Origin: Gelidibacter salicanalis
Lineage (GTDB): Bacteria > Bacteroidota > Bacteroidia > Flavobacteriales > Flavobacteriaceae
Assembly: GCF_016469035.1 (NCBI RefSeq)
Contig: NZ_JAEHJZ010000004.1
Span: forward strand, 235,173 to 299,172
Direction: 5' to 3'
Length of the DNA stretch: 64,000 bases
This document shows positions 12,584 to 33,525 of this stretch, in pieces (position 1 is the stretch's first letter; the number at the start of each line of letters is the position of its first letter). The notes below the pieces were generated by a model. It saw only the letters and a list, made by a program, of their open reading frames with translations, made no database searches and had not been told where the DNA came from. Both the position numbers and the translations under genes were made by a program.

Positions 12584-12652
12584 TAGTTTACTCACAATGC
12601 TATCCAAACTTGACCTAACGATTTATATAACATAAGTATCACTAAAAAAAAT

Positions 12653-12890
12653 AAAAAGTTTACAAACCCATTAATAGTAAGATGCGGCAGGAGATTTTAT
12701 AATGACGCCTTGCTTTTTGAAACCAGTTTAACTGAGATTTATAGGGCAAATTTAATCATGAATGTCCGGTAAAACAAGTAAAAAGTGTACAAACCCATTA
12801 ATAGTAAGACGCGGCAGGAGATTTTATAATGACGCCATGCTTTTTGAAACCAATTTCACTTAGAGGGATTAGGCAAATTTAATTTAGAAT
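12653..12890. repeat. Two tandem copies of a 127-bp noncoding repeat
   Basis: The words TACAAACCCATTAATAGTAA and GCGGCAGGAGATTTTATAAT, followed by ATGACGCC and GCTTTTTGAAACCA, recur at a spacing of exactly 127 bases (12661 and 12788). The copies diverge towards their ends. No open frame or transposase is present. The second copy runs directly into the dispersed repeat that is also found inverted near 36.1 kb. Confidence 0.8.
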
Positions 12891-32365: not shown

Positions 32366-33439
32366 AAATAAATCAGCTCTGATCAGACAAATCGGCGTCA
32401 TCAGCGTTCCTTCGATTCAAACTTTAGAATAAAAAAACCCTCAACATAGTTGAAGGTTTCTTGAGGCATCAAGCGTCCCGATAGTTACCGGGAGAACCGC
32501 TGTAGAAGGTTTGATGGCTTTAATTAATTTTTCATAAAAATTTAGAATAAAATAAATAAATCAGCTCTCATCAGACAAATCCGCGTCATCAGCGTTCTTT
32601 CGATTTAAAATTTAGAATAAAAAAACCCTCAACTTAGTTGAAGGTTTCTTGAGGCATCAAGCGTCCCGATAGCCATCGGGAGCACCGCTGTAGAAGGTTT
32701 ATATGCTTTAATCAATTTTTTATAAAAATTTAGAATAAAATAAATAAATCAGCTTTCATCAGACAAATCGGCGTCATCAGCGTTCCTTCGATTTAAAATT
32801 TAGAATAAAAAAACCCCCAACATAGTTGAAGGTTTCTTGAGGCATCAAGCGTCCCGATAGCCATCGGGAGCACCGCTGTAGAAGGTTTATGTGCTTTAAT
32901 CAATTTTTTATAAAAATTTAGAATAAAATAAATAAATCAGCTCTGATCAGACAAATCCGCGTCATCAGCGTTCCTTCGATTTAAAATTTAGAATAAAAAA
33001 ACCCTCAACATAGTTGAAGGTTTCTTGAGGCATCAAGCGTCCCGATAGCCATCGGGAGCACCGCTGTAGAAGGTTTATATGCTTTAATCAATTTTTTATA
33101 AAAATTTAGAATAAAATAAATAAATCAGCTCTCATCAGACAAATCCGCGTCATCAGCGTTCTTTCGATTTAAAATTTAGAATAAAAAAACCCCCAACATA
33201 GTTGAAGGTTTCTTGAGGCATCAAGCGTCCCGATAGCCATCGGGAGCACCGCTGTAGAAGGTTTATGTGCTTTAATCAATTTTTTATAAAAATTTAGAAT
33301 AAAATAAATAAATCAGCTCTCATCAGACAAATCCGCGTCATCAGCGTTCCTTCGATTTAAAATTTAGAATAAAAAAACCCCCAACATAGTTGAAGGTTTC
33401 TTGAGGCATCAAGCGGATTCGAACCGCTGTAGAAGGTTT
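32366..33439. repeat. 188-bp tandem repeat array derived from the tRNA-Cys 3' half
   Basis: Five full units of exactly 188 bases (AATCAGCT word at 32371, 32559, 32747, 32935, 33123 and 33311) and a sixth partial unit fused to the real tRNA-Cys gene make up the array. Each of the first five units contains a minus-strand copy of tRNA-Cys from the anticodon loop to the 3' end (starting at 32463, 32651, 32839, 33027 and 33215). In each the T-loop is replaced by a CCCGAT/ATCGGG hairpin. Each unit also carries a copy of the tRNA terminator. The unit farthest from the tRNA is the most diverged. The 180 bases before the array hold nothing recognisable. Confidence 0.93.
33371..33399 (-). terminator. 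tRNA-Cys terminator (copied in each repeat unit)
   Basis: Minus-strand stem AACCTTCAAC / GTTGGGGGTT with a TAT loop and a T7 run begins five bases past the tRNA 3' end. Near-identical hairpins occur 188, 376, 564, 752 and 940 bases further down the tandem array. Confidence 0.8.
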
Positions 33440-33474
33440 TGCAGACCTCTGCCTAGCCACTCGGCCATGATGCC
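33404..33474 (-). tRNA. tRNA-Cys (GCA)
   Basis: A 71-base cloverleaf on the minus strand has the acceptor stem GGCATCA / TGATGCC, discriminator T (U73, a tRNA-Cys identity base), and D-arm GCCGAGTGGCTAGGC. The anticodon loop is CTGCAAA, giving GCA, and the T-arm is AGCGG-TTCGAAT-CCGCT. The 3' CCA is not encoded. Its terminator and the 188-bp tandem array lie immediately downstream. Confidence 0.95.
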
Positions 33475-33525
33475 AAATTTGGAAGTGCAAATGTAAAAAA
33501 AATAAACGTGGTAAGCTATATAGTT

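Follow-up and report, generated by a model that had tools for sequence, protein, structure and literature searches.

A tandem array of palindrome-tagged tRNA-Cys halves in Gelidibacter salicanalis as a possible member of a proposed class of tRNA-anchored elements

Downstream of the tRNA-Cys gene in a 64,000-nucleotide stretch of the Gelidibacter salicanalis genome (hereafter the window) lie five tandem copies of a tRNA 3′ half in which a palindrome has taken the place of T-loop bases. We interpret this array, with a probability of roughly 0.6, as a tandemly amplified member, lacking an open reading frame (ORF), of a proposed class of Flavobacteriaceae elements that sit beside tRNA genes, the units being homogenised by recombination with the tRNA gene. 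Broken tRNA halves of this sort, some of them accompanied by a GIY-YIG gene, may constitute mobile elements, anchored on tRNA genes, of a kind not yet described; among the literature matches listed, no title or abstract deals with tRNA halves that bear a palindrome tag, or with GIY-YIG elements linked to tRNAs, in Bacteroidota. If this reading is correct, i) it would show that mobile elements can land on essential tRNA genes that are nonetheless preserved, with a palindrome marking the discarded half; ii) it would account for the tRNA fragments and tRNA-linked GIY-YIG ORFs of Bacteroidota genomes; iii) it would supply a candidate enzyme for some of the dispersed palindromes of these genomes; and iv) it would offer a testable case of rtT-like arrays as selfish-DNA debris rather than regulatory RNAs.

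The source of the copies is an intact tRNA-Cys (GCA) gene at 33403–33474 on the minus strand, the only one that ARAGORN and Rfam (RF00005, 61.6 bits) find in the window, in agreement with the preliminary description. Upstream of it, also on the minus strand, TACATTTG at 33488–33495 is of the form TAnnTTTG and presumably represents the Bacteroidetes-type −7 motif; downstream, a terminator-like hairpin with a 14-bp stem in the predicted fold runs into a U tract (33370–33402, minus). The whole array, five 188-bp periods on the minus strand, occupies 32366–33402. That the units are five and exactly 188 bases long, as had been proposed, is borne out both by TRF, which reports a tandem repeat at 32366–33415 with period 188, 95% matches, and 0% indels, and by the recurrence of GCTTGATGCCTCAAGAAACC at 33414 (in the tRNA), 33226, 33038, 32850, 32662, and 32474, which gives five spacings of exactly 188.

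Each unit reads, in order, AAACCTTCTACAGCGG, the palindrome, the T-stem and acceptor 3′ strand CGCTTGATGCCTC, the terminator-like hairpin of tRNA-Cys itself, and an AT-rich spacer that contains a dispersed repeat (first copy at 33304–33359, minus, from sequence searches). Since AAACCTTCTACAGCGG directly follows the anticodon, the tRNA-derived part does begin within the anticodon loop, as the preliminary description had it. Alignment and palindrome search place the pseudo 3′ halves of tRNA-Cys, all on the minus strand, at 33215–33264 (unit 1, tag 33228–33245), 33027–33076 (unit 2, tag 33040–33057), 32839–32888 (unit 3, tag 32852–32869), 32651–32700 (unit 4, tag 32664–32681), and, with a genome sequence search in addition, 32463–32512 (unit 5, imperfect tag 32476–32493). 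Unit 5, the farthest from the tRNA, is also the most diverged, as the preliminary description had noted, with 91% identity to a query unit of the array compared with 97–98% for the others. Two earlier claims survive in part: a tRNA 3′ half is present in every unit but is not intact, a T-loop palindrome that had been overlooked occurring in all five; and folding supports the intrinsic terminator as a strong hairpin leading into a U tract, but a consensus terminator scan called none in the region of the array and tRNA-Cys, a probable reason being that its T run is tied up in A/T pairs.

The array sits between convergent genes. A Pfam scan of nine neighboring ORFs (27.5–38.7 kb) identified RNase R-like, LysE-like, FolB, and glutaminyl/glutamyl-tRNA synthetase-type products, left two ORFs without a family, and found no recombinase among them. 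The window genome is a 5.16-Mb draft of 682 contigs, which leaves the precise number of units in doubt; three single-contig genomes (G251, G188, and G199) have arrays as well. Elsewhere in the window, at 12643–12883, TRF reports a 127-bp unit repeated twice in tandem with 88% matches.

Alignment shows that the T-loop bases GAATC of tRNA-Cys are absent from all five units and are replaced by TCCCGATGGCTATCGGGA, or by TCCCGGTAACTATCGGGA in the distal unit; by palindrome search the tag is perfect in four units and imperfect in the distal one. The array units are thus tagged and presumably disabled tRNA halves. Nor are they recognized as tRNA or other RNA genes: the search for tRNAs within units suggested by the preliminary description yielded no call inside the units with either ARAGORN or Rfam, both of which detect real tRNAs alone, and Rfam at its gathering threshold matches only the window's two tRNAs and no other RNA family. 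We infer that the palindrome disables the copy, so that it would no longer work as a tRNA or would no longer be a site for a nuclease. The perfect palindrome TCCCGATnnnnATCGGGA occurs at 78 sites in the genome, four of them inside the array (0 for the backward-read control). Tagged tRNA halves were sought among these sites, and the flanks GGTTC/CGCT were seen in none of the 30 that we viewed by eye. At loci L009–L018 and L268–L287 of the same genome, TCCCGATnnnnATCGGGA often lies within a longer repeat, ..GCGCTTATAG-palindrome-AAAGAACAAAGACTTG.., which is perhaps another mobile repeat.

When the outer pair of the tag was left free in the search pattern (Y and R), the 84 matches listed from Flavobacteriaceae genomes comprised 61 C-G, 20 T-A, 3 T-G, and 0 C-A pairs, corresponding to 21, 13, 2, and 0 among 36 distinct strings (Fisher p = 4.5e-8, a value that is merely indicative because the strings are related by descent). 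These counts show that the palindrome is maintained; they do not tell whether this happens at the level of DNA or of RNA.

Among 60 genomes searched, including the window genome and nine congeners, the number of units at tRNA-Cys ranges from 0 to 6 within the genus. At the corresponding position, G005 carries 6 units, each about 117 bp long and devoid of the dispersed repeat. Two units are present in G001, the tag of one being degraded, two with a different insert in G003, and two degraded ones in G006; G007 has a single unit, and G002, where the contig ends, at least one. No units were seen downstream of tRNA-Cys in G004, G008, and G009. Copy number therefore does vary among relatives, and the refutation that the preliminary description tied to a fixed copy number does not take effect. 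In a wider set of 129 distinct tRNA-Cys loci, mostly from Flavobacteriaceae and in many cases fetched for their likeness to the unit, 25 have copies of their own 3′ half in sense orientation within 1 kb downstream; there were no antisense and no upstream copies. The 25 include two cases that are no arrays, namely a second tRNA-Cys (L171) and an isolated weak match (L035). Where loci were chosen by the tRNA alone (L140–L190), 4 of 51 were positive and 3 of these genuine, a proportion that leans low because genera already fetched were left out. The T-loop of the copies is intact at L054, L058, and L062; hairpins occupy it at L043, L063, L071, L072, L076, and L147; and L028, L053, and L073 have an insert of another kind or in another place. 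Given such inserts and the untagged copies at L058, L062, and tRNA-Leu-TAG (see below), the tag is dispensable.

In 17 of the 25 positive tRNA-Cys loci we compared the acceptor-terminator stretch of the units with that of the tRNA: within Gelidibacter, the best match of a unit is the terminator of its own tRNA in 14 of 15 cases, and of the 40 units in all 17 genomes, 26 are uniquely closest to their own terminator, 7 are tied, and 7 are closer to that of another genome. Among the 12 arrays with at least two units, 10 have a first unit that is more similar to the tRNA than their last (L067 and L073 are the exceptions), and the rank correlation is negative in all six arrays with three or more. 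These comparisons are consistent with units close to the tRNA exchanging sequence with it while those farthest away decay. Expansion and homogenisation would both occur by unequal exchange in the acceptor-terminator-spacer stretch; as this stretch is common to the intact tRNA, fresh or corrected material would be supplied at the tRNA end and old units would decay distally.

Tagged halves also occur at other tRNAs. Of 397 Flavobacteriaceae genomes from 237 genera, 30 genomes (25 genera) contain a pattern for one type of T-loop tag, compared with 0 for the reversed pattern as control; a slightly longer version of the pattern was found in 2 of 395 Bacteroidia genomes. The window genome itself scores 0 with both, because four units read GGTGC before the tag and the palindrome of the fifth is imperfect. 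At the 30 tag loci, one per positive genome, an intact tRNA lies on the same strand within about 1.5 kb in 28 cases, the 12 nt after the tag match the neighboring tRNA at 9 or more positions in 22, and exactly five T-loop bases have been replaced in 21 of these 22, the left border GGTTC being imposed by the pattern and the right border free. The other eight places were set aside as lacking a matching tRNA: L323 and L345 have no tRNA, and L326, L337, L338, L339, L341, and L349 match at fewer than 9 of 12 positions.

A scan of all tRNAs likewise rejects a phenomenon confined to tRNA-Cys, since other tRNAs have downstream copies in all three genomes scanned: 3 of 30 tRNAs in the window genome (Cys, Thr-TGT, and His), 4 of 31 in G251, and 2 of 33 in G005. 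Antisense controls gave 0, 0, and 1 (a weak 66% match at the tRNA-Cys of G005), and upstream controls 0, 3, and 2, in the window genome, G251, and G005, respectively. In the window genome, the copied part at tRNA-Thr-TGT (L090) and tRNA-His (L106) is exactly the last 18 nt plus the terminator, and each copy is headed by the palindrome-like repeat TGAGCGnAGTCGAAG. Beyond the tRNA-His copies, L106 contains different tandem repeats of 147 bp (34–570 and 709–1098). Two G251 loci (L205 and L207) carry tRNA-Ile followed by tRNA-Ala, the order found in rRNA operons; behind each tRNA-Ile its last 18 nt occur a second time, together with a palindrome-like repeat. At L109 and L309, a tRNA-Pro-like pseudogene behind tRNA-Ser has palindromes (TCACGC..GCGTGA) in its D and T arms and adjoins a GIY-YIG ORF.

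Seven of the 30 tag loci (L322, L330, L334, L335, L336, L340, and L343) have a GIY-YIG ORF beside the tag, located between tRNA and tag or next to or between tags; all seven ORFs match PF01541, and such an ORF is present at 7 of the 9 tRNA-Phe tag loci. Both Bacteroidia tag matches also follow a small GIY-YIG ORF, in one case behind an intact tRNA-Asp (L289) and in the other at a locus in which no tRNA was found (L288). None of the 7 tRNA-Cys loci among the 30 adjoins a GIY-YIG ORF, and a profile that recovers all 7 positive-control loci detected none of the tRNA-linked type in the 1 kb downstream of any of the 129 tRNA-Cys genes, our own included; the GIY-YIG link to the Cys array is therefore one of shared architecture, and the role of the enzyme is one that we infer. 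In two genera (L053 and L069), an antisense ORF of another GIY-YIG type lies beyond the Cys copies, scoring 23.6 and 18.9 bits at a cut-off of 22.6. When 30 GIY-YIG loci were fetched by score, a tRNA was present in 5 and none was in reach for 25, so that only a subset of GIY-YIG genes is meant here.

Mirror-image elements carry the 5′ half. At tRNA-Asn of the window genome, a tagged 5′ half with a palindrome in the D-loop is followed by a GIY-YIG ORF and then by the intact tRNA; at tRNA-Ala of the same genome two such 5′-type units stand in tandem; and at tRNA-Arg of G100 two near-identical units lie 314 bp apart. Comparison with G005 reveals filled and empty sites: i) at tRNA-Asn, the window genome has a 359-bp insertion, and in G005 the upstream sequence is aligned to the start of the tRNA; ii) at tRNA-Leu-CAA, G005 has a 333-bp insertion with a GIY-YIG ORF, and the site is empty in the window genome; iii) at tRNA-Leu-TAG, a 74-bp half copy, without ORF and untagged, distinguishes the window genome from G005; and iv) the tRNA-Ala element is found in both. 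The sites at Asn, Leu-CAA, and Leu-TAG indicate that whole units have been gained or lost within the genus; presence/absence insertions were seen at Asn and Leu, and at tRNA-Cys only variation in copy number. The nuclease reading is weakened by the intact tRNA of the ORF-bearing elements, which keeps its T-loop: an enzyme that simply cleaved T-loops would attack the very DNA that carries it.

A unit of the proposed class would consist of a duplicated tRNA half with its flank, to which a small ORF for a free-standing GIY-YIG nuclease may be added, and a palindrome would often replace or split one loop of the copy, the T-loop in the 3′ type and the D-loop in the 5′ type; since the unit adjoins an intact tRNA, tRNA function would be kept. 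The tRNA-Cys unit would be such a tagged 3′ half with terminator hairpin and spacer, repeated five times. The array has the duplicated half beside an intact same-strand tRNA and the loop palindrome, and lacks the GIY-YIG ORF; within the class the palindrome is frequent, not universal, and the GIY-YIG ORF belongs to the autonomous form only. Duplication or movement may be set off when DNA is cut by the GIY-YIG nuclease or, in trans, by one of its relatives, and the Cys array may descend from ORF-bearing elements. We put forward only tentatively, at somewhat less than even odds, the stronger proposal of a class of selfish elements in which a GIY-YIG nuclease duplicates half of a tRNA gene and leaves the functional tRNA intact, the spare half bearing a palindrome as its mark; amplified arrays without an ORF would then be non-autonomous members, and the nuclease may read the palindrome instead of the tRNA. 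Ssn is a family of GIY-YIG single-strand nucleases and forms no part of the evidence.

The array might instead have arisen passively, by slippage of the tRNA 3′ half and terminator, landing of a dispersed palindrome, and unequal crossing-over, with no element or enzyme at all. We consider this unlikely: the replacement of five T-loop bases in nearly all parent-matched halves, at different tRNAs and in different genera, the D-loop tags of the 5′-type copies, and the GIY-YIG ORFs that accompany tagged halves all speak against it. In its favor, recombination would suffice to homogenise the units and let the distal ones decay, the palindrome is commonly found dispersed in the genome, untagged copies occur, and none of the 129 Cys loci has a tRNA-linked GIY-YIG ORF. 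Still less probable is a role of the array as relic tandem att sites of integrative elements whose tyrosine recombinases use tRNA 3′ ends. The extent of the copies, from the anticodon loop or T-loop to the 3′ end, and the repetition of exactly the last 18 nt at Thr, His, and Ile are what such sites would look like, and att-like sites had been suggested at the outset; against them stand the nine neighboring ORFs without a recombinase, the mirror-image 5′ copies, and the palindrome tags and GIY-YIG ORFs, which are not att features.

It seems improbable to us as well that the array works through RNA, its read-through transcripts supplying hairpins, additional terminators, or decoys for the processing of tRNA-Cys or the regulation of cysteine. 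TAnnTTTG is found within 60 bp upstream of 113 of the 129 tRNA-Cys genes and is absent from the sense strand of the 1038-bp array, so that, should transcription depend on this motif, read-through would be the sole source of unit RNA. This absence, the destroyed T-loop, and the restriction of Rfam matches to real tRNAs leave little support for the tandem small RNAs or working decoys of the preliminary description, and a copy number of 0 to 6 in one genus and a position between convergent genes also speak against them; on the other side, the unit folds into a tag hairpin and a terminator hairpin better than shuffled sequences (z −2.9), the pairing of the tag is maintained, and a similar layout yields an RNA in Escherichia coli. 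There, the tyrT locus has 178-bp repeats and gives rise to rtT RNA; as had been pointed out, these share with our array a layout of tandem repeats that directly follow a tRNA gene and all include part of its 3′ end. A VNTR is tabulated beside rtT RNA (PMC2658671). The array differs from tyrT/rtT in its longer tRNA part, T-loop palindrome, GIY-YIG relatives, occurrence at several tRNA types, and phylum (Bacteroidota); having no RNA family match, it resembles tyrT/rtT in layout and is not filed there.

Returning to the tRNA-anchored class that we favor, three other known systems share some of its features. Free-standing GIY-YIG homing endonucleases also pair a small ORF adjoining a conserved gene with filled and empty sites between relatives, but in the present class the tRNA is intact, the half is often palindrome-tagged, tandem units and ORF-less forms occur, and cleavage is only putative. 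Integrative elements in tRNA genes likewise duplicate the tRNA 3′ end and leave the tRNA intact, whereas here no recombinase lies beside the array, 5′ types exist, and the insertions measure 74 to 359 bp. REP/BIME sequences, with their RAYT (Y1_Tnp) proteins, are comparable as dispersed palindromes and tandem mosaics, but our units carry a tRNA half and a terminator. A RAYT was considered as the source of the tag and rejected: PF01797 (Y1_Tnp) has 8 matches in G000, 1 each in G001 and G003, and 0 in G005 and G007, two congeners with tagged Cys units.
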